NCBI RefSeq assembly: GCF_923868895.1
Contig: NZ_OV350343.1
Location: 1,736,001-1,800,000, forward strand
Direction: 5' to 3'
DNA length: 64,000 bases
Source of the DNA: Halomonas sp. TD01
GTDB taxonomy: Bacteria > Pseudomonadota > Gammaproteobacteria > Pseudomonadales > Halomonadaceae
Position numbers and translations under genes: made by a program. Shown one piece after another: positions 52,174 through 64,000 of the stretch; position 1 is the first letter of the stretch; each line of letters begins with the position of its first letter. Under the pieces are notes generated by a model. It had not been told where the DNA came from. It searched no databases and saw only the letters and a list, made by a program, of their open reading frames with translations.

Positions 52174-52620
52174 AAGTCGTTCTCCTGCAAACGGCCCTAA
52201 AATGGGCTTGTTGCAGTGCATTATAAAGCAATACAGATGTTAGACCAAGGTCTATATTTAGAGGGTTGTAGTTCCTCTGTCCCTATTAGGGTGCTACATG
52301 GTAGTAGATACTACGGTTTATTAGTGAACTCTTATGCCAATGCCTATTCAGAAGGTAAAGATGAATAAAGTTAAGGGTGGTGTTTGATTAATAGTTGAGT
52401 TTAATTAATTGAATTTATTCGGTTAAAATATTTTCGCTACCAATTGTTACTTTGCGTTACGTAAATGGTGAGCAAAGAGTGTTATGTTCAAGCTATAGCT
52501 AACCTTGTCGAGACTTCAGGGTGAAGAAATCAACAAATAGTGCTACGCAATAATTCATACACAAACGGTATTTATAGTAGGTAGTAAGCGTAGCAGCATT
52601 TTAGAAAAGGCATGTGTTTT
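52174..52620. other. A+T-rich intergenic region before fliD copy 1
   Basis: 446 bp without a gene. A weak sigma-28-like element TCAAGCTA-N11-GTCGAGAC lies at 52488-52514; the -35 half is good and the -10 half only partly fits GCCGATAA. Other promoters may be present. Confidence 0.35.
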
Positions 52621-53979
52621 ATGGCTTCGATTACATCACTTGGTATTGGCTCTGGATTGGATCTCACCGGCTTGTTAGATAAACTTCGTGAAGCAGAGCA
52701 GCAAAAGCTAGTGCCAATTCGACAGCAGGTTGAATCTGAGCAAGCAAAAATATCTGCATTTGGGCAATTGAAAGGTGGACTATCGCAGTTGCAAACAGCG
52801 GCTTCAGCACTTAATAACGCTGATCTTTATGAAAGCTTAACCACCTCTGTTGAGGGAGATGGAGTTCGTGCGGTTACCAGTGATGATGCCCAGCCTGGCC
52901 AATATGAGGTTGCCGTAGAGCAGCTAGCCACAGCAGGCAGCCTTGCAACTGAACGCTTAGCAGCGCCAGATGAAGCGATTATCGACGGTGATACTGAACT
53001 GGCATTTGCATTTTCAGATAGTGATATGAGCCTCATCACTATTGCAGATGGGAGTTCTCTCGAAAATATTCGTGATGCGATTAACACTGAAAGTGATGGT
53101 CGCTTGAATGCCTCTATTATCAACGATGGCGAAGGGTATCGGTTGTCGGTTAATGCAACAGAAACAGGGGCGAATGCCAGTATTCAAAGCACCAATTTTA
53201 GCGATATTTTAGCCGATGATGTTGCCACCAGTGATTCTCAGGTAGTGCAAGAAGGCTTAGATGCGCTCGTTAACGTGAATGGTATCGATATTGTCAGCTC
53301 GTCGAACCAGATAGAAGAAGCCATCCAAGGAGTAACATTAAATCTAAATGAAGCGAATACATCCAATACCATTACCGTCGCCCAGGACAGCCAGGCCATT
53401 AATGAAGAAGTGAAGGCTTTTGTTGAGGCGTTTAATACGCTGAAAGGCACCATCGGTGATTTGACAGCCTTTGATGCCGCAAGTGGCCAAGCGGGCCAAC
53501 TTAATGGCGATAGTGCTACTCGTGCTGTTGAATCTACGCTACGTAGTGTACTTAGCGGCATGGTGGATGGGGAGGGTTTACGAGTTCTCTCTGATGTGGG
53601 TATTTCTCTACAAGTAGATGGGACTTTGGAACTTGATGAAAGCGTGTTAAACAGCGCAATTGCCAATCAGCCTGATGCTTTGGCGAATTTCTTTGCAGGG
53701 CCTGATAGCAAAAGCGGTATGGCGGGGCAGGTTAATGAGGCTATTGGACAGATGTTGAATGATTCAGGAGCCGTGCAAAACGCTATCAGTGGGTCAGAGC
53801 GTCGAGTTGAGTCTTTTGATGATCGACTCTCCCGCACTGAGGTTCGTATTGAAGAGACGGTGGAGCGGTATCGTACTCAGTTCGCTCAATTGGATACGAT
53901 GATGTCCCAAATGAACTCCACCAGTAATTATTTGACACAGCAGCTGGCAGGCTTGAATCAGCAGCAAACACAAAGCTAA
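52621..53979 (+). CDS. fliD: Flagellar filament cap protein, copy 1
   Basis: 452 residues from ATG at 52621, matching the start of the second copy (MASITSLGIGSGLDLTGLL); ATG at 52612 abuts AAAAGG and is less likely. FliD folds at the filament tip and places flagellin subunits. The N- and C-terminal D0/D1 regions (KLREAEQQKL, ERYRTQFAQLDTMMSQMNST) are typical. About 50% identical by eye with copy 2; the two differ most in the middle. Terminator at 54018-54047. Confidence 0.94.
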   Translation: MASITSLGIGSGLDLTGLLDKLREAEQQKLVPIRQQVESEQAKISAFGQLKGGLSQLQTAASALNNADLYESLTTSVEGDGVRAVTSDDAQPGQYEVAVEQLATAGSLATERLAAPDEAIIDGDTELAFAFSDSDMSLITIADGSSLENIRDAINTESDGRLNASIINDGEGYRLSVNATETGANASIQSTNFSDILADDVATSDSQVVQEGLDALVNVNGIDIVSSSNQIEEAIQGVTLNLNEANTSNTITVAQDSQAINEEVKAFVEAFNTLKGTIGDLTAFDAASGQAGQLNGDSATRAVESTLRSVLSGMVDGEGLRVLSDVGISLQVDGTLELDESVLNSAIANQPDALANFFAGPDSKSGMAGQVNEAIGQMLNDSGAVQNAISGSERRVESFDDRLSRTEVRIEETVERYRTQFAQLDTMMSQMNSTSNYLTQQLAGLNQQQTQS

Positions 53980-54069: not shown

Positions 54070-55155
54070 GCAGACTCTGAGTGCAACACACTCATTGGAT
54101 GGTTGATGGGCTTTCATGGTACTTGGCCATCAGCTCGCTCATCACTTCTATCGGACATTTAAATCCAAAGCGTTTTCGAGGTCGCATATTCAGCTCAAAG
54201 GCAATGGCGTCCAGCTCTTCCTGGCTATGTACTGAAAGGTCCGTTCCTTTCGGTAAATATTGACGGATAAGGCCATTGATATTCTCATTGGCCCCACGTT
54301 GCCAGGGGCTATGGGGATCGCAAAAGTAAATCGCAACGCCGGTTTCTTGAGTGATTTTTGCATGTTGTGCCATTTCACGCCCCTGATCATAGGTCATGCT
54401 TTTTCGAGCGGTGGTCGGCATTCGATTCAGAGCAGCACTAAAGCCTGCTACGGCGGAGGTGGCGGTGGCGTCGTCCATTTTTGCGAGGATCAGATAGCCA
54501 CTACTAAGCTCTACCAAGGTGCCTACCGCGGACGCGTTATTCTTACCTTTGATCAGATCGCCTTCCCAGTGGCCGGGCATTTCACGCTTACTGACCTCGG
54601 GCGGACGTAAGTGAATGCTGACCATGTCAGGGATCTGGCCACGTCGATCCACTTCGCCACGGCGAGGCTTGCGTGTGGTTTTACCTTGTCGCAAGCAGTG
54701 AATCAGTTCCTTGCGAAGGTGGCCAACAGGCAAGGCATAAATGGCCGTGTAGATGGTCTCTCGGCAGACGTAGGCATCGCGCAAATCAGGTAGTTTCATC
54801 GTCTTGAGCTTGCCGCTAATTTGTTCGGGAGACAAGCGTCGCCGCAACATATGCACGATGAGATCAAACCGCTCGGTGCCTGGCAAAAGCTTACGCGCAG
54901 GACGACAGACCTCTCGACGCTTTTCTCGCTGACGTTGGGCGTACCGGGCGCAGTAACCGTTCTGGGCCATTTGGTTACGGCGTATTTCACGAGAGATGGT
55001 TGAAGGAGCTCGCCCCAGGAGCTGGGCAATATGCCGAAGGCTCATCCCTTGGGCTTGACCCACTTGGATGCTGGCACGTTCTTCAATACTGAGTTCGAGG
55101 TAAGACATGGGACAACACCTTAGCGAAATGCTCAGGTGTTGCACTCAGTTTCTGC
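54070..55155 (-). mobile_element. IS30-family insertion sequence
   Basis: About 1086 bp bounded by inverted repeats GCAGANNCTGAGTGCAACAC (54070-54089 and 55136-55155), 18 of 20 bases matching. It contains a single full-length transposase gene. No target duplication is obvious at the edges. It is inserted between the two fliD genes, 20 bp upstream of the sigma-28 promoter of copy 2. Confidence 0.88.
54092..55108 (-). CDS. IS30-family transposase
   Basis: 338 residues from ATG at 55108. N-terminal HTH (LSIEERASIQVGQAQGMSLR, then LGRAPSTISREIRRN) and a DDE integrase core: HWEGDLIKGKNN, MTYDQGREMAQH and PHSPWQRGANENINGLIR. All three acidic positions appear intact, with no frameshift. The start 36 bases upstream in the same frame is not favoured. 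Confidence 0.93.
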   Translation of the reverse strand: MSYLELSIEERASIQVGQAQGMSLRHIAQLLGRAPSTISREIRRNQMAQNGYCARYAQRQREKRREVCRPARKLLPGTERFDLIVHMLRRRLSPEQISGKLKTMKLPDLRDAYVCRETIYTAIYALPVGHLRKELIHCLRQGKTTRKPRRGEVDRRGQIPDMVSIHLRPPEVSKREMPGHWEGDLIKGKNNASAVGTLVELSSGYLILAKMDDATATSAVAGFSAALNRMPTTARKSMTYDQGREMAQHAKITQETGVAIYFCDPHSPWQRGANENINGLIRQYLPKGTDLSVHSQEELDAIAFELNMRPRKRFGFKCPIEVMSELMAKYHESPSTIQ

Positions 55156-55246: not shown

Positions 55247-56653
55247 ATGGCTACGATCACCTCTCTTGGCGTTGGATCAGGGCTGGATCTTACTGGCCTA
55301 TTGGAACAGCTACGCGGCGCAGAGCGCCAAAAGTTGGTACCAATCACTCAGCAAAAAACGCAGCAAGAAGCAAAGATATCCGGGTACGGTCAGTTGAAAA
55401 GTGCGATGTCTCAGTTTCAGACCTCGGTCAACAAGCTGAACGATCCCAAGCTTTATCAAAGTTTGTCTACCGAAATACGTGGCGGCACCGCTATAAAGGC
55501 AACAGCTAGTAGTGAGGCAACTGCAGGGCGTTATGATGTGGAGGTAACACAGCTTGCCCGTGCAGGTAGCTTAGCCACTAATAGCATTCAAGGGGATGAT
55601 GCGCTTACTCAGGGCCTAACAGAGGCCGGTGCAAGCCTGACATTAACCTTCGGAAAAGATGCTGATAATAATGACATTACGCGAACTATCGCGCTGACGG
55701 AAGGTAGTTCTCTCGAAGATATCCGCGACCAGATTAACGATTTTGATTTTGAAGAGGGTCCAAAAGTTAATGCTTCTATCGTCAACGATGGTAGCGGGTA
55801 TCGGCTGGCGCTTAACTCCGCGAAGACCGGAGAAGAAGGGTCTATCAATGGTATGGCCTTCTCGGGGCTGGCGGGTGGAGTCGTACTTGCCTCTGATGCG
55901 AACACAGCTTACGAAGGTCGTAACGCCAATTTGAAAGTAAACGGGATTGCAATTACCAGTGAAACTAATAGCGTCCAAGGTGCCATCGCTGGTGTGACAC
56001 TAAATGTAGAAAAGGTGACCGAAGCGGATAGCCCGAATACCGTAGTCGTCGCGCGAAACACGTTGGCTGTGCGTGAAGCCGTCGAAGGCTTTGTAAAAGG
56101 TTATAATGATCTGAAAGCCAAAATCGGTGAGCTAACGGCTTTCAATGGCGGTGGCGATGCAGCAGGCGATTTGATTGGTGATCGTGCAGTGCGTTCTATT
56201 GAATCCCAGTTGCGCTCTGCGCTGGTAGGTAATGTGCCCGGCGGTGATATCTCTCGCCTATCCGACATCGGTATTGAGCTTAAAAAAGATGGCACCCTTG
56301 AGCTTGATTCAACCAAAATGAGTGATGCTGTGGCGAACAATCAAGATGCCGTGGCGGCATTTTTTGCCAGCGACAGTGATGACGCTGGTATGGGGGGGCA
56401 GGTAAGTGCGGTATTGGATAGGGTGCTAAGCGAAAATGGCGCATTGGGCAGTGCCCAGCGTAGTGCGGAGGGGCGAGTGGAGTCGTTGGATAGCCGCTTT
56501 GAGCGAATGGAAACGTCTATTGAGCGCACGGTTGAGCGCTATCGTAAGCAGTTTACTCAGTTAGATATGATGATGTCGCAAATGAACTCCACCAGCGGCT
56601 ATTTGTTCCAGCAGCTGGATATGATGAATTCGCAAATGGCAAATCGTAGATAG
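55247..56653 (+). CDS. fliD: Flagellar filament cap protein, copy 2
   Basis: 468 residues; ATG behind AAGGA. Same opening (MATITSLGVGSGLDLTGLL) and same end (VERYRKQFTQLDMMMSQMNST) as copy 1, with a divergent middle, so a paralogue. It has its own sigma-28 promoter and terminator and is followed by fliC. Having two caps next to two flagellins suggests matched cap-filament pairs or variant filaments. Confidence 0.94.
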   Translation: MATITSLGVGSGLDLTGLLEQLRGAERQKLVPITQQKTQQEAKISGYGQLKSAMSQFQTSVNKLNDPKLYQSLSTEIRGGTAIKATASSEATAGRYDVEVTQLARAGSLATNSIQGDDALTQGLTEAGASLTLTFGKDADNNDITRTIALTEGSSLEDIRDQINDFDFEEGPKVNASIVNDGSGYRLALNSAKTGEEGSINGMAFSGLAGGVVLASDANTAYEGRNANLKVNGIAITSETNSVQGAIAGVTLNVEKVTEADSPNTVVVARNTLAVREAVEGFVKGYNDLKAKIGELTAFNGGGDAAGDLIGDRAVRSIESQLRSALVGNVPGGDISRLSDIGIELKKDGTLELDSTKMSDAVANNQDAVAAFFASDSDDAGMGGQVSAVLDRVLSENGALGSAQRSAEGRVESLDSRFERMETSIERTVERYRKQFTQLDMMMSQMNSTSGYLFQQLDMMNSQMANRR

Positions 56654-56824: not shown

Positions 56825-56851
56825 TCAAGTATTTCCCCTAGCTGCCGTTAA
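56825..56851 (+). promoter_or_regulatory. Sigma-28 promoter of fliC copy 1
   Basis: TCAAGTAT-N11-GCCGTTAA; spacing is exact and both boxes fit FliA promoters. A leader of about 60 bases follows to the ATG and is nearly identical to that of fliC copy 2. Confidence 0.82.
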
Positions 56852-58156: not shown

Positions 58157-58183
58157 TTAAGTATCTCCTCAGTCTGCCGTTAA
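58157..58183 (+). promoter_or_regulatory. Sigma-28 promoter of fliC copy 2
   Basis: TTAAGTAT-N11-GCCGTTAA, same layout as the copy 1 promoter, 66 bp before the ATG. Confidence 0.82.
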
Positions 58184-59173: not shown

Positions 59174-59193
59174 GTCAGTTTTAAACCTAAAGA

Positions 59194-59217
59194 ACCCGAG
59201 CTTAGGCTCGGGTTTTT
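59194..59217 (+). terminator. Terminator after fliC copy 2
   Basis: Stem ACCCGAGC / GCTCGGGT, 4-base loop, then TTTT. Confidence 0.9.
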
Positions 59218-59291: not shown

Positions 59292-62200
59292 ATGGCTAAG
59301 AAAAAAACACGTCAGAAAAAAACTATTTCTCCTCAGTCAATAAAAAACAACAGCCTTGATTTAGGTGTGCCTAAAAAAGAGGTGGGTGCTTTTATGGCGC
59401 TCTATAACGCCAAGCAGCTGTCACAAGCTCAACAGGCGGCACAGCGAATGACTGAGAACTACCCTGATAGTGCATTTGCATGGAAAGCGCTCGGTACGAC
59501 GTTGTTAGAGGCAGGTGATTTTTCGGCCGCTTTGGCTCCTCTATTGAGATCCTACGAGTTTAATGCTGAGGACGCATTAATGCTCACTAGCCTGGCAGCT
59601 GTCTACTACCGACAAGGAGAAGCACAGCAAGCAATTAAGCATCAAATGGAAGCCGTAGCACTTCAACCCCAATACGCTCCTGCGCAGTACCGGCTGGCAG
59701 AAATGCTACAGAGTTCTGGGCAGCATGCTGCAGCGCTTGAATATGCCCAAAAATCTCTGGAGCTAGGTTATGATGAATTAAAAGCACGCTTACTTATAGG
59801 TTCTTTGCAGTACCAGACCAAGTACTTTAGTAGAGCCCTTGAAAATTATCTGCTGTTGGAAAATGAATTTCCCGGAAATCATTCTGTTTATAATAATTTA
59901 GGTAATTTATACAAAGATATGGGGGAGTACAAAAGAGCCGAAAGCTACTATCAGAAAGCTTTGGCTAAAAGGCCTGATTTTGTAATGGCTTATTCAAATA
60001 TTTTCTTTTCTAAACACTATGATCCATCTGTTACTCAAGAAGAAATAATCGATTTTGCGAAAGGTTGGGATGAAAGATTTTCTTTATTTAAGCTTAGTTC
60101 TCCTGAGAATGTTAAGAAATTAGATAAGTCACTAAAAGTAGGCTTGATATCCTCCGGGTTTAGAACACACCCAGTTGGTCAAATGATTACTGCCGCCCTG
60201 GAGCGAAGTCGGTCTGATATAAATTTTTATGCTTACTCTACCAGTGATATTAATGATCAGTTTACAAAAAAAATTAGTAATGTTTGCAAGCAGTGGCGGC
60301 AAGTTCGTCATTTGAGCCAAAAGGCGATAGCTGAGCAAATTCGGAATGATGAAATAGATATCCTTATTGACCTTTCGGGGCATGGTGATGGTAGCTGCTT
60401 GCAAGCTATCTCCATGCGGCCAGCACCTTTATGCATTAAGTGGGTAGGTGGGCTGGTAAATACGATGGGTCTAGAGTCTATTGACTATCTACTGTCAGAT
60501 AGTATCGAAACGCCCGAAGGTGTCGACGATCAATACACAGAGAAATTGATTCGATTGCCGGATGACTATATTTGTTACTCTCCCTGTGAGTATGCACCGA
60601 ACACAACGTCACTACCTGCACTTAAAAATCGCTATATTACGTTGGGCTGTTTAAATAATGCTGCAAAAATTAGTGCACAGCTTCTCGGAGAGTGGGCTAT
60701 TTTAATGCACCAACTGCCGAAAAGCCGCCTACTTTTGCGAGGACCTTTGTACGAGAGCCAAGACTATTGCCAGCGTATATGGAATGAAATGGCCCAGCAC
60801 GGCATAGAGCAGGAGCGCATTTTATTAGAAGGTCCTATCAATCATAAGGACTTTATAGGCACCTACCAGCGTATCGATATTGCGTTAGATACTTGGCCCT
60901 ATTCTGGTGGTTTAACTACCTGTGAAGCTTTATTAATGGGGGTGCCTGTTGTTACCCTGCCGGGGCCAACTTTTGCCGGTCGCCACAGTGCCACTCACTT
61001 AATTAATGCAGGTTTGCAGGAGTTGGTCGCCAATAGCTGGGGTGAGTACCGCCAGCGTGTGATAGAGCTTGCAAATGATTTACCTAACCTTGCGGTTATT
61101 CGTGCGGGGCTGCGCACCATTTTGCATTACTCTCCTGTGTGTGATGCACCAAGGTTTGCGAATCATTTTAATAACGCCTTACGCGCTATTTGGGTACGCT
61201 ATTGCGAAGGTAAAGCGCCCGAAGCGCTAACTTTCAACAAAGAAGGTGAAATGTGGTTTGCTGATGAAGACGCGTTAGTAGAGTTGCCCGAGTGCTCAGG
61301 TGAAGAAATATCTGACGTTGATTTTTTTGAATGGCAAATTGATAAACCTATCACCATCATAGATAACGCTGCTGTCCTACCTCGAAACCCTGATTATGCA
61401 AAGTGGATGTCGAGCGGACACCTAGCGATTATTAGTTTTGACCCAGCTAGTTTGCTTACTAAAAAAGTGGAAAAGCTTAAAGAATACGGAGAGTTTCATC
61501 ATTATCCTCACGCCTTATTAGGTGATGGCCAACCTACTACTCTTTACGCCACTTTAGATGCAGAAAAAGGGAGTACGCTGAAGCCTCTAAAAGAAGCTCA
61601 ACAACTGAAACACTTGCGTGAAAAGCTTAAAGTGTTAGCTGAACTGCCGATTACTACAGTAGCACTAGATAGCATCGAAGGCTTACCCAGCGTAGATATG
61701 CTGGTGTTAGATGACCTGCATGATGCTATGAAAGTGCTAGAAAATGGCGAGAGATCGCTAAAAAATACGCTATTAATTCAGGTTAGAGTGGCTTTTCAGC
61801 CAAGCTATGAGCACCAGCCGAATTTAGCTGAATTACAGCACTGGATGGCTCGCCATGGTTTTCGTTTTTACTGTTTCAATAACGAGGAATACCAAAGTCA
61901 TTTCTCGGAAAGCGTGCCAGTGAACCGGCTTCAAGCCACAGAGCTAGTCAATGTTAATGCAATTTTTCTGCCCACCTATAAGCGGGTGGTTGAGTTGAGT
62001 GAGAGTCAATGCACTAAACTCGCATATTTGTTGCATTCAATGTACGACATTAAAGACATGACATATGCGTTATTGAAGGCAGTGGATAGTGAAAAGGCAA
62101 ATAAATATTTAGATAAAGAAGTTTTGAATGAAAAAAAATTGAGAGTACCGTTAAAGCGAGAAGTGATTCACTCTACTTGTCAGCTTGAGAGCAACCAGCG

Positions 62201-63008
62201 TGAATTTACCTTGTGTGTTGGTGTGCCTGTTTATAATGAAGAGAAATATATTCTAGAAACTATTAGGTCATTGAAAGATCAAGATTTCAAAGATGTTAAG
62301 TTCCTGATTTCTGATAACTGCTCAACGGATAGAACGCTGGATATTATTTGCGAAGAAACGGCAGGTGATGAGCGTTTTGAAGTATTTAAACAGCCTGCAA
62401 ATATCGGCGCGTCGAAAAATTTTGAATTTGTTTTTAAGAATAGTAGATCAAAATATTTTATGTGGTTAGGGGCTCATGATGTTTTGTCAAAATCTTATTT
62501 ATCACTTGCTGTTGATGAAATAAAGAAACATTCTGACACTTCGATGGTAATGGGGACGCCGGTGGCCATTGATGAAGAATCTAATGTGAAAGGCTTTTTG
62601 GAGAACGCTATTTATGACTTTTCACATGATAAAAAAGAAGCGCGTTATCTGAAATCGGTTGCAGAGCTTTCAAACTGTACCGTGTTACACTCGGTCTTCC
62701 TTCGAAAAGCTCTAGATAAATTTGAATTCAGAGCTACTATTTCTGCTGATCATGTTTTGATAAGTCATCTATTGTGGTTTGGGGTGCTAAGAAATATAGA
62801 TGGTGAAAGCTATTTTAGGCGATACTTTCATACAAGGACTGAGAGTCAAGAGGAAAGAATTGCTGGTAATAATGTTAGATTGGATAGGAATGGTTTTATT
62901 GAGTATTACCTCGATGATTTAAAAGAGCTTTTAGTTAGCTTAAGTTCTTCTAAGTCTGAAAGAATTATTAAAAAAACAAATGAAATTCTCAATGCTAGGT
63001 TTTTCTAG
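59292..63008 (+). CDS. TPR / GT41 (OGT, SPINDLY-type) / FkbM-like / GT2 fusion glycosyltransferase
   Basis: 1238 residues. TPR repeats about 30-245 (NLGNLYKDMGEYKRAESYYQ), GT41 core about 285-650 (SSGFRTHPVGQM with the OGT histidine, LNNAAKISAQLLGEW with the lysine equivalent, RHSATHLINAG), a degenerate FkbM-methyltransferase-like part about 690-880, and a GT2 domain from 970 (VGVPVYNEEKYI, SDNCSTDRT). Codes downstream of the flagellins and upstream of CDP-sugar genes, so flagellin O-glycosylation in the cytoplasm is likely, as for Caulobacter FlmG (TPR plus GT41). Composition varies along the gene: A+T-rich around 59.8-60.3 and 62.1-63.0 kb. Confidence 0.85.
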   Translation: MAKKKTRQKKTISPQSIKNNSLDLGVPKKEVGAFMALYNAKQLSQAQQAAQRMTENYPDSAFAWKALGTTLLEAGDFSAALAPLLRSYEFNAEDALMLTSLAAVYYRQGEAQQAIKHQMEAVALQPQYAPAQYRLAEMLQSSGQHAAALEYAQKSLELGYDELKARLLIGSLQYQTKYFSRALENYLLLENEFPGNHSVYNNLGNLYKDMGEYKRAESYYQKALAKRPDFVMAYSNIFFSKHYDPSVTQEEIIDFAKGWDERFSLFKLSSPENVKKLDKSLKVGLISSGFRTHPVGQMITAALERSRSDINFYAYSTSDINDQFTKKISNVCKQWRQVRHLSQKAIAEQIRNDEIDILIDLSGHGDGSCLQAISMRPAPLCIKWVGGLVNTMGLESIDYLLSDSIETPEGVDDQYTEKLIRLPDDYICYSPCEYAPNTTSLPALKNRYITLGCLNNAAKISAQLLGEWAILMHQLPKSRLLLRGPLYESQDYCQRIWNEMAQHGIEQERILLEGPINHKDFIGTYQRIDIALDTWPYSGGLTTCEALLMGVPVVTLPGPTFAGRHSATHLINAGLQELVANSWGEYRQRVIELANDLPNLAVIRAGLRTILHYSPVCDAPRFANHFNNALRAIWVRYCEGKAPEALTFNKEGEMWFADEDALVELPECSGEEISDVDFFEWQIDKPITIIDNAAVLPRNPDYAKWMSSGHLAIISFDPASLLTKKVEKLKEYGEFHHYPHALLGDGQPTTLYATLDAEKGSTLKPLKEAQQLKHLREKLKVLAELPITTVALDSIEGLPSVDMLVLDDLHDAMKVLENGERSLKNTLLIQVRVAFQPSYEHQPNLAELQHWMARHGFRFYCFNNEEYQSHFSESVPVNRLQATELVNVNAIFLPTYKRVVELSESQCTKLAYLLHSMYDIKDMTYALLKAVDSEKANKYLDKEVLNEKKLRVPLKREVIHSTCQLESNQREFTLCVGVPVYNEEKYILETIRSLKDQDFKDVKFLISDNCSTDRTLDIICEETAGDERFEVFKQPANIGASKNFEFVFKNSRSKYFMWLGAHDVLSKSYLSLAVDEIKKHSDTSMVMGTPVAIDEESNVKGFLENAIYDFSHDKKEARYLKSVAELSNCTVLHSVFLRKALDKFEFRATISADHVLISHLLWFGVLRNIDGESYFRRYFHTRTESQEERIAGNNVRLDRNGFIEYYLDDLKELLVSLSSSKSERIIKKTNEILNARFF

Positions 63009-63022
63009 ATAGGATAAGTTAT

Positions 63023-63796
63023 ATGAAATGCGTCATACTGGCGGGCGGTCTGGGTACTAGAATTTCTGAAGAAACTCACCTGAAGCCAAAGCCGATGATT
63101 GAGATCGGAGGTAAACCAATACTCTGGCATATAATGAAGCTTTACTCTTTTTATGGTGTAAATGACTTTATTATTTGTTGCGGTTACAAAGGCTATGTGA
63201 TTAAAGAATATTTTGCTAACTACTTCTTGCATATGTCTGATGTGACTTTTGATATGTCAAGCAATTCGATGCAGGTACATGAAAAGCATGCAGAGCCATG
63301 GCGAGTTACATTGGTCGATACTGGGGAAGAAACTCTGACAGGTGGGCGTCTCAAGCGAGTCGCTAACTATGTCCGCGATGAGTCATCTTTCTGCTTTACC
63401 TACGGTGATGGAGTGGCCGATATAGATATCGGTGCTCAGCTTGCTTTTCATCAGCAGCATGGAAAGCTCGCTACTGTAACGGCAGTACAGCCTCCAGGTC
63501 GATATGGGGCACTGCTTCGTGACGGAACTGCCGTAAGTGGTTTCCAGGAAAAGCCACCTGGCGATGGCGCATGGATCAATGGTGGCTTTTTTGTCCTAAA
63601 CCCGCAAGTTCTGGACTTTATTGATGGGGATCAAAGTTCATGGGAAGGCCGTCCATTGGAGAGCATCGCCAATAATGGACAGCTAGAAGCTTTTGAGCAT
63701 CTTGGATTCTGGCAACCTATGGATACCCTGCGTGAAAAAAATCATCTAGAGCATCTTTGGGATTCAGGACAAGCCCCTTGGAAGTTATGGTCATGA
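63023..63796 (+). CDS. rfbF: Glucose-1-phosphate cytidylyltransferase
   Basis: 257 residues. Nucleotidyltransferase motif LAGGLGTRI, PKPMIEIGGKPILWH, FTYGDGVADID (metal) and GAWINGGFFVLNP are all those of RfbF, normal length. It makes CDP-glucose from CTP and glucose 1-phosphate, the first step to CDP-dideoxyhexoses. It starts 14 bp after the fusion glycosyltransferase and overlaps the next gene by 4 bases. Confidence 0.96.
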   Translation: MKCVILAGGLGTRISEETHLKPKPMIEIGGKPILWHIMKLYSFYGVNDFIICCGYKGYVIKEYFANYFLHMSDVTFDMSSNSMQVHEKHAEPWRVTLVDTGEETLTGGRLKRVANYVRDESSFCFTYGDGVADIDIGAQLAFHQQHGKLATVTAVQPPGRYGALLRDGTAVSGFQEKPPGDGAWINGGFFVLNPQVLDFIDGDQSSWEGRPLESIANNGQLEAFEHLGFWQPMDTLREKNHLEHLWDSGQAPWKLWS

Positions 63797-64000
63797 ATAA
63801 AGCTTCGCTATCGTTTTGGCAGGGTAAGCGAGTATTGGTGACCGGCCACACAGGTTTTAAGGGGTGTTGGTTGTCCCTGTGGTTACAGCGCTTGGGGGCG
63901 GAAGTAACAGGAGTTGCTTTGGCGCCCAATACACACCCCAGCTTGTTTATGCTTGCCAAGGTAGATAACAGCTTGAAGAGCTATGAGTGTGATATCCGCG
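63793..64000 (+). CDS. rfbG: CDP-glucose 4,6-dehydratase, partial at window edge
   Basis: 69 residues from ATG at 63793, running off the right edge. SDR Rossmann motif VLVTGHTGFKGCWLSLWL is typical of RfbG and the position after rfbF is the standard order. It would convert CDP-glucose to the 4-keto-6-deoxy form, the precursor of paratose, abequose, tyvelose or related sugars. Confidence 0.93.
   Translation, partial: MNKASLSFWQGKRVLVTGHTGFKGCWLSLWLQRLGAEVTGVALAPNTHPSLFMLAKVDNSLKSYECDIR

Follow-up and report, generated by a model that had tools for sequence, protein, structure and literature searches.

A candidate flagellin glycosylation enzyme of exchangeable parts in Halomonas sp. TD01

Beside two flagellin genes of Halomonas sp. 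TD01 lies a gene whose product appears to join four parts on one chain: TPR repeats, a GT41 transferase, an FkbM-like module and a GT2 transferase. What would such an enzyme do, and why should two transferases share a chain? The original prediction, made from the 64,000-nucleotide stretch analysed here (the window), was that the protein binds flagellin, attaches the first sugar and extends or caps it in one pass. The fusion itself is real: the gene is a single frame of 1238 aa with Pfam domains and full-length relatives (Table 1). A fusion made by chance or by a frameshift is ruled out by the unbroken frame, the one-contig genome and those same relatives. In the structure model (1194 aa, pTM 0.55) the packing of the domains is uncertain. 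Our preferred reading, to which we give a probability of about 0.6, is that of a cytoplasmic enzyme that O-glycosylates flagellin and is built from exchangeable parts, with a hub in the middle and a capping tail.

Table 1. Features of the locus, in positions of the window.
Feature	Positions	Strand	Basis or remark
FliA (sigma-28)-like site 5' of flagellin 1	56825-56851		1 mismatch
Flagellin 1, 298 aa	56918..57814	+	PF00669, PF00700
FliA (sigma-28)-like site 5' of flagellin 2	58157..58183	+	0 mismatches to pattern used
Flagellin 2, 307 aa	58250..59173	+	PF00669, PF00700; 118 bp 5' of enzyme gene
Intrinsic terminator between flagellin 2 and enzyme gene	59190..59217	+	-19.8 kcal/mol, z -5.3
Fusion enzyme gene	59292..63008	+	1238 aa; Pfam domains; full-length relatives
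TPR part, residues about 30-240	59379..60011	+	Pfam TPR families; helical repeats in the model (1194 aa)
GT41 (OGT/SPINDLY-type) transferase, residues about 250-640	60039..61211	+	Pfam; invariant H293, K459, Y537
Middle module, putative degenerate FkbM (pseudo-methyltransferase), residues 655-945	61254..62126	+	
Exchangeable tail (a GT2 transferase in this protein), residues 971-1238	62202..63005	+	Pfam; four invariant aspartates
rfbF, glucose-1-phosphate cytidylyltransferase, donor gene	63023..63796	+	TIGR02623, 472 bits vs cut-off 300
rfbG 5' part, CDP-glucose 4,6-dehydratase	63793..64000	+	Extends past the window; TIGR02622, 471 bits (whole gene)

Judging by sequence, the GT41 transferase and the GT2 tail both look intact. 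Pfam scores the protein at 139.6 bits for Glyco_transf_41 (cut-off 25) and its tail at 90.8 bits for Glycos_transf_2 (cut-off 23.3). All 24 aligned sequences, the query among them, share the GT41 residues H293, K459 and Y537, and the GT2 aspartates D1008, D1013, D1063 and D1153 are likewise invariant in 24/24. The solved structure closest to the GT41 part is 7y4i (E 7.8e-149). The catalytic His and Lys are kept, H293 standing at the position of SPINDLY H495 and K459 at that of SPINDLY K665, residues whose catalytic roles are described in the available part of PMC9715652. An active-site Tyr at the position of SPINDLY Y744 makes the domain SPINDLY-like rather than human-OGT-like. The resemblance to SPINDLY and OGT has its limit, however: the alignment to SPINDLY chains stops at profile position 618, N-terminal of the middle module. 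Up to that point the enzyme has the layout of FlmG, an N-terminal TPR followed by a GT-B transferase, its TPR and GT41 parts being recognised by Pfam; here we take GT41 to have the GT-B fold.

The proposed link to flagellin proves stronger than a single adjacency. Searching for the same architecture elsewhere, a check suggested with the original prediction, brought 61 family loci with the middle module into the comparison, and gave close homologues of the GT2 tail in 4 of 275 family genomes. In all 61 loci (our own included, from 10 genera) the middle module lies downstream of a flagellin gene on the same strand, in 58 at less than 500 bp; these loci are mostly best-scoring matches, non-random and related to each other. 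The module is present in 109 of 250 family genomes, all 109 with flagellin, and flagellin in 214 of the 250 (hypergeometric p 1.2e-10, kinship ignored). At E 1e-10, 105 of the 214 flagellated genomes are without the module, so that it is not needed for flagella in general. Glycosyltransferase and sugar-nucleotide genes adjoin flagellin in the window, the arrangement of a flagellin glycosylation island. As for transcription, the FliA-like pattern, built on what we take to be the FliA consensus, has 4 matches at no more than 2 mismatches against 2.0 expected, so that the site 5' of flagellin 2 is supported by its position and perfect match only.

The terminator that separates flagellin 2 from the enzyme gene is a point against our reading. 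It would better suit an enzyme that acts on another protein or on a surface glycan and sits beside flagellin only at an insertion hot spot, as would the gene between both fliD copies in the window that we read as an IS30-like transposase. Such an account is highly improbable, however, given that every one of the 61 loci, spread over 10 genera and widely differing in their N-terminal parts, lies 3' of a same-strand flagellin gene, and that none of the 109 module-bearing genomes is without flagellin. The N-terminal partners of the module across the 61 loci, in types named after scanned members, are GT41 (42 loci), TPR-sulfotransferase (5), GT4 (5), TPR plus an unassigned part (4), a sulfotransferase-like part (1) and a split gene (1), with no partner in the remaining 3. 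What stays constant at the locus is the middle module, which occurs also without GT41 and as a stand-alone protein.

What, then, is this constant element? It is homologous to the FkbM methyltransferases (PF05050; hhalign 99.6%), is 27-32% identical to second FkbM-type copies on the same proteins, and has a class I methyltransferase fold, which rules out a new fold. The prediction of an FkbM-like module without clear SAM motifs nevertheless holds up. The Lys and the Glu of the KxDxxGxE signature, as read from the FkbM copies aligned in this analysis, are each present in 12 of 13 FkbM-type copies but in 0 of 176 middle modules (198 rows, reduced to 176 once identical and contained sequences were removed). 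The second motif I glycine is found in 12/176, and the Glu of TEV in 1/176, where 152 have Arg or Lys. Other positions are kept in this non-redundant set: D717 in 176/176, D807 in 174/176, the Asp opening motif I in 172/176, an acidic residue (Asp) at the FEP position in 176/176, and the first glycine of motif I in 110/176. The middle module is, by these residues, a putative conserved pseudo-methyltransferase, with the FkbM signature lost and other residues fixed. One could argue from its fold, its clear FkbM homology and the retained motif I Asp, FEP-position Asp and first glycine that it is still a methyltransferase with a changed active site, methylating side chains of flagellin or the initial sugar. 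We consider this quite unlikely in view of the missing signature residues, second glycine and TEV Glu; moreover, in some relatives a true FkbM follows the middle module as an extra tail module, which looks as though methylation were handled separately.

PF05050 has no match in the window protein at E up to 1 and none in the Pfam scan of the stand-alone module L093, and it scores 13.7 bits, below the cut-off of 22.7, in the stand-alone module L101 (302 aa). Compared by sequence with solved structures, the middle module had just two chance-level matches (E 0.27 and 0.81). Among 321 genomes sampled from the class, the module's profile matched our own genome alone at E 1e-12; among 293 sampled from the order, the query module matched 11 at E 1e-15, 6 of them from its own family.

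C-terminal to the middle module the picture changes. In 23 close relatives, chosen because their alignment to the query stops at the tail, sequence identity drops from 0.81 (residues 801-850) to 0.34-0.48 (881-940) and then to 0.05 (951-1000). For 21 locus pairs, overlapping one another, with fronts at least 75% identical, a single pair has a tail type in common; for 77 protein pairs at least 80% identical, the tail cluster is common to 20, both members are tailless in 3, and the tails differ in 54. The front of the query is closest to that of L044 (80% identity), whose tail we read as methyltransferase-like, and its tail is closest to the one in L053 (63%), a locus with a front just 46-49% identical. 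Tails in relatives comprise GT2, GT4, GT56, sulfotransferase and methyltransferase domains, and five fronts (L061, L064, L072, L075, L083) have no tail. Thus, so far as sequence comparison can tell, the tail is an exchangeable part, apparently exchanged among close relatives.

The genes downstream suggest what the GT2 tail might transfer. Strong homologues of this tail, own genome included, are each followed by rfbF, rfbG, rmlC, a C-methyltransferase gene and a CmcI-type gene, with DegT and GNAT genes matched at only 2 of these 4 loci. In the genome analysed here (locus L004), the genes beyond rfbG, outside the window, encode an RmlC-type epimerase, a sugar C-methyltransferase, a DegT aminotransferase, a GNAT acetyltransferase and an RMNT_CmcI-type methyltransferase. 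Tail and sugar cluster are both present in 4 of the 61 loci, cases that are few and non-independent, and both are missing from the other 57. The predicted division of labour, with GT41 adding the first sugar and GT2 extending it, is still the best reading of the chain, and a GT2 donor of its own is supported by the tail's co-occurrence with CDP-sugar genes. The sugar genes also occur apart from the tail: 50 of 275 genomes have rfbF-type genes, but 46 of these lack such a GT2 tail, and L118 has the same five-gene set with no flagellin, front or tail within 15 kb. In L114 the front has no tail, and an rfbF/rfbG/DegT/RmlC-like cluster on the opposite strand starts about 1.1 kb downstream, so CDP-sugar genes can sit near a front that lacks the GT2 tail.

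L114 is one reason to ask whether the CDP-deoxysugar is instead the donor of GT41, the GT2 tail being idle or using something else; the GT41 donor is not readable from sequence, and the donor genes come after the gene as a whole. We hold this to be very unlikely. L084 combines the GT2 tail with the same donor genes (its rfbF is 95% identical) but has GT4 in place of GT41, the cluster is missing at the 39 other GT41-type loci of the 61, including the one with a front 80% identical, and the GT2 aspartates are invariant (24/24).

Taken together, a cytoplasmic enzyme of exchangeable parts would work as follows, with flagellin as the presumed substrate and both donors presumed. The TPR region would hold flagellin, by analogy with FlmG, and the GT41 domain, as its family suggests, would add the first sugar to Ser or Thr. 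The middle module may be a hub or docking domain that does not methylate but holds the modifying enzymes to flagellin or to the first sugar. The GT2 tail, a finishing tool replaced in relatives, would then cap the glycan with a CDP-activated, C-methylated 6-deoxysugar, probably aminated, acetylated and O-methylated, made by the downstream genes. A broader proposal, which we offer tentatively and with rather less than even confidence, is that the halomonad pseudo-methyltransferase is a constant flagellin- or glycan-docking tool-holder. It would have initiating transferases joined to its one side and, to the other, finishing enzymes (glycosyl-, sulfo-, methyl- or phospho-transferases) accompanied by their donor genes; recombination near one fixed junction would swap these parts and so renew the flagellar surface chemistry.

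How far does this depart from known systems? The claim that the design is not a textbook one needs qualification, since GT41 enzymes with a fused methyltransferase domain were reported in 2016 from the flagellin glycosylation islands of Enterobacteriaceae (PMC4875605, in its available part). Those islands likewise combine a SPINDLY-type GT41 fused to an AdoMet methyltransferase domain with strain-variable sugar genes, and one type has CDP-4-keto-6-deoxyglucose genes. As far as that text goes, however, the transferases of each strain belong to a single family, whereas here GT41 and GT2 share a chain; a further difference is that the methyltransferase-like part of our enzyme has lost its signature and that the C-terminal tail is swapped between close relatives, the methyltransferase parts being compared by description. 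Caulobacter crescentus FlmG (available part of PMC7591256) also has an N-terminal TPR, which binds flagellin, and a GT-B transferase acting on flagellins, but it has 596 residues, puts pseudaminic acid on flagellin, and is described there without a middle module or tail. In the viosamine island of Pseudomonas syringae (excerpts of PMC3927599), the outer-sugar transferase VioT likewise lies beside its own strain-variable donor genes; its system differs in using separate proteins and a dTDP-sugar, with the initiating fgt1 and fgt2 elsewhere, upstream of fliC. The type B flagellin GT2 of Clostridioides difficile (excerpts of PMC5207246) joins a family 2 transferase to a methyltransferase domain for glycan extension, but those excerpts describe no TPR or GT41, and a separate GT1 adds the first sugar.

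These precedents, the enterobacterial fusions with their variable sugar genes and the further fusion in C. difficile, could mean that ours is an ordinary enzyme of a flagellin glycosylation island whose fusion has no special meaning, and in some loci the finishing enzymes do seem to be separate genes (tailless fronts, stand-alone middle modules). We judge this unlikely: a constant pseudo-enzyme middle with parts exchanged to either side of it, and two transferase families per chain, are not described in the portions of the literature considered. Among the open-access matches listed, the architecture of constant hub and swappable tail has no prior description, and no open-access paper combines Halomonas, flagellin, glycosyltransferase and glycosylation. 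The original prediction as a whole is partly supported; it was silent on the swappable tail, the constancy of the middle module and the downstream sugar-nucleotide genes.

If our reading is true, the locus would offer a naturally occurring modular platform for glycosylating proteins, in which one conserved enzyme body serves while the last domain sets the decoration of a surface protein. The tail domain and the next genes would form a readable code from which the outer flagellar sugar could be predicted, and the pseudo-enzyme would be open to test. A conserved front with an exchanged tail suggests how halomonads could keep altering their flagellar chemistry; more speculatively, this might account for fast diversification of the flagellar surface against phages or predators, with assembly intact.

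Seven loci share a further gene cluster (L060, L071, L065, L061, L072, L067 and L070), whose scanned member, in L060, is APS-kinase-like. A regular expression for a PAPS-binding motif matched 0 tails, Pfam sulfotransferase tails included, and is uninformative. A rule pairing sulfotransferase tails with APS kinase is suggestive only. L060 and L071 have Pfam sulfotransferase tails, and the tail of L065 falls into one cluster with that of L048, a sulfotransferase. Neither L061 nor L072 has a tail, and the gene downstream of each only resembles a sulfotransferase (the L061 copy has no Pfam match), and the tails of L067 and L070 are methyltransferase-like.

The enzyme gene is a single reading frame of 1238 residues, unbroken in a one-contig genome of 4.14 Mb in which the window spans bases 1736001-1800000, and the closest named relatives are Halomonas and Vreelandella. 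Pfam recognizes TPR repeats, GT41 and, at residues 975-1142, GT2, and finds no match in residues 640-960, even at E 1. Upstream lie two flagellin genes, 83% identical to each other, each with a FliA-like site in front of it; a strong terminator separates the second from the enzyme gene. On the 3' side follow rfbF, rfbG, an RmlC-type epimerase, a sugar C-methyltransferase, a DegT aminotransferase, a GNAT acetyltransferase and an RMNT_CmcI-type methyltransferase (together, the CDP-sugar cluster), and then genes whose sequences suggest an ABC transporter. An IS30-like gene between two fliD copies adjoins the flagellin pair.

Coordinates of features, in the window or in fetched loci (L-numbers; L004 is the enzyme's own locus)
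Feature	Sequence	Position	Strand	Remark
Fusion enzyme gene	window	59292-63008	+	
fliD copy	window	52612-53979		
IS30-like transposase gene	window	54092-55144	-	350 aa, by sequence reading
fliD copy	window	55247-56653		
CDP-sugar genes	L004	5024-11373		
CDP-sugar genes	L084	1684-8027		
Enzyme in two frames	L102	6475-11964		769 + 557 aa
Enzyme in two frames	L103	7754-12308		437 + 1072 aa
~1000-codon gene	L091	10384-13413		matches pyridoxal-dependent decarboxylases
Stand-alone module and next genes	L101	9529-12080		
Stand-alone module and next genes	L093	7699-10233		

Among 250 family genomes, the whole protein is matched at E 1e-50 in 111 and the middle module at E 1e-10 in 109; flagellin occurs in 214, including all 109 with the module. 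A point against constancy is that the other 105 flagellated genomes showed no module at that threshold. We compared 61 loci: our own and those of 60 genomes with matches, 40 of them GT41-type (mostly best-scoring) and 20 with the middle module only or with split frames. In all 61 the gene lies downstream of flagellin on the same strand, at a distance of at most 500 bp in 58. When clustered, with types named after scanned members, the N-terminal parts are of GT41 type (42, including the split L102), TPR-sulfotransferase (5), GT4 (5), TPR plus unassigned (4), sulfotransferase-like, below the Pfam cut-off (1), split (1) or absent (3). The two-frame enzymes, whose pieces were analysed separately, could reflect decay, sequencing error or on/off switching. 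In L088, L091, L094 and L095 the module is the C-terminus of an 811-818-aa protein, and a gene of ~1000 codons lies nearby.

The tail is an exchangeable part. In 23 close relatives, chosen because their alignment to the query ends there, identity is 0.81 at residues 801-850, 0.34-0.48 at 881-940, 0.18 at 941-950 and 0.05 at 951-1000. Fewer than 60 residues follow the middle module in 12 of the 61 loci; the remaining 49 have tails that fall into 26 clusters when 70% mutual coverage is required. Just one of 21 locus pairs with fronts at least 75% identical has a tail cluster in common; of 77 protein pairs at least 80% identical, 20 share a lenient tail cluster, 3 are both tailless and 54 differ. 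Scans of 21 excised cluster members and of whole proteins gave GT2, GT4, GT56, sulfotransferases, FkbM and other methyltransferases, and CDP-glycerol phosphotransferase, some of them paired; the tails of L044 and L050 had no Pfam match. The most frequent cluster (11 loci, one member scanned) carries the motif FEFGxGGST, which looks like methyltransferase motif I. The G+C content of the tail DNA here is 34.7%, that of the front 42-44% and that of the window 52%. Behind each of five tailless fronts (L061, L064, L072, L075, L083) stand the same two separate genes, one for a hexapeptide-repeat protein (L061 copy scanned), the other for a protein of ~275 aa, sulfotransferase-like in appearance and without Pfam match.

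At E 1e-12 the GT2 tail has homologues in 5 of 275 family genomes. Four are strong (E 1e-79 or better, our own included); the weak one, in genome G207, is a 355-aa protein with no other probe matched within its 20 kb. Genes for rfbF, rfbG, rmlC, the C-methyltransferase and the CmcI-type enzyme stand behind all four strong tails, DegT and GNAT being matched in the query and L084 only. Tail and cluster occur together in 4 of the 61 loci and both are missing from 57, a split expected once in 521,855 if the loci were independent, which they are not. In L084, the informative case, GT4 replaces GT41, and the middle module is closest (81%) to that of L098, whose tail belongs to another cluster; the L084 tail is nevertheless of the query's type (53% identical), and rfbF, DegT and CmcI are 95%, 90% and 87% identical to the query's. 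Since L084 keeps the GT2 tail and donor genes with GT4 in place of GT41, the CDP-sugar appears to go with the GT2 tail and not with GT41. Against this, 50 of the 275 genomes carry rfbF-type genes, and 46 of these have no such tail; L118 has the five-gene sugar set with flagellin absent within 15 kb; and in L114 an opposite-strand cluster resembling rfbF/rfbG/DegT/RmlC, in which the C-methyltransferase and CmcI-type probes were unmatched, starts ~1.1 kb downstream of a tailless front. The cluster is a mosaic: between L084 and L004 the C-methyltransferase is 84% identical, but rfbG only 50% and RmlC 52%, as if these two, which lie between rfbF and the C-methyltransferase gene, differed in history from the rest.

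Both transferase domains look intact. When the query and 23 other GT2-tailed sequences are aligned, GT41 residues H293, K459 and Y537 and GT2 residues D1008, D1013, D1063 and D1153 are invariant in all 24. The SPINDLY counterparts of H293 and K459 in the alignment are H495 and K665, and mutating these abolishes activity (PMC9715652). Because Y537 aligns with SPINDLY Y744, where Cys stands in human OGT (PMC9715652), UDP-GlcNAc should not be assumed as the GT41 donor.

The middle module has a predicted class I methyltransferase fold (pLDDT 84.3), and profile comparison with three genuine FkbM domains from relatives' tails gives 99.6%; the FkbM parts of three scanned tails match PF05050 at E 1e-21 to 1e-23. 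Over 176 non-redundant copies of the module, a hydrophobic residue or Ala always stands in place of the FkbM signature Lys, and the signature Glu position never holds Glu, while D717 is present in 176, D807 in 174 and D811 in 166. Judged by its residues, the module is rebuilt rather than simply decayed. Ten of the 120 best relatives carry a second copy after the first.

Anatomy, conserved catalytic positions, genomic place, tail exchange and co-occurrence of tail and donor genes are established. For the mechanism we propose that the TPR part would grip flagellin, as in FlmG (PMC7591256), that GT41 would attach the first sugar, that the middle module may serve as a docking part, and that GT2 would add a CDP-activated C-methyl-6-deoxysugar. 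Enterobacterial flagellin islands join GT41 to methyltransferase domains, and one island type carries CDP-4-keto-6-deoxyglucose genes; those islands, however, have only one transferase family per strain (PMC4875605), whereas here GT41 and GT2 are combined. In C. difficile a methyltransferase domain is joined to a family 2 transferase (PMC5207246), and P. syringae has an island for a capping sugar (PMC3927599). We found no earlier report, in the open literature searched, of a constant hub with swappable tails.

Stand-alone homologues of the middle module also adjoin flagellin in L101 (302 aa) and L093 (304 aa). A second branch of stand-alone proteins (P0127-P0139, 323-331 aa) consists, where members are named, of hypothetical proteins, one from Rhodanobacteraceae; as far as named, it lies outside the halomonads. 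In L101 and L093 the next gene encodes a TPR protein, whose scanned L101 copy matches LicD below the cut-off, and a cytidylyltransferase-like gene follows; a phospho-substituent on flagellin is possible, and the L101 arrangement may parallel the pairing of tail and donor genes.
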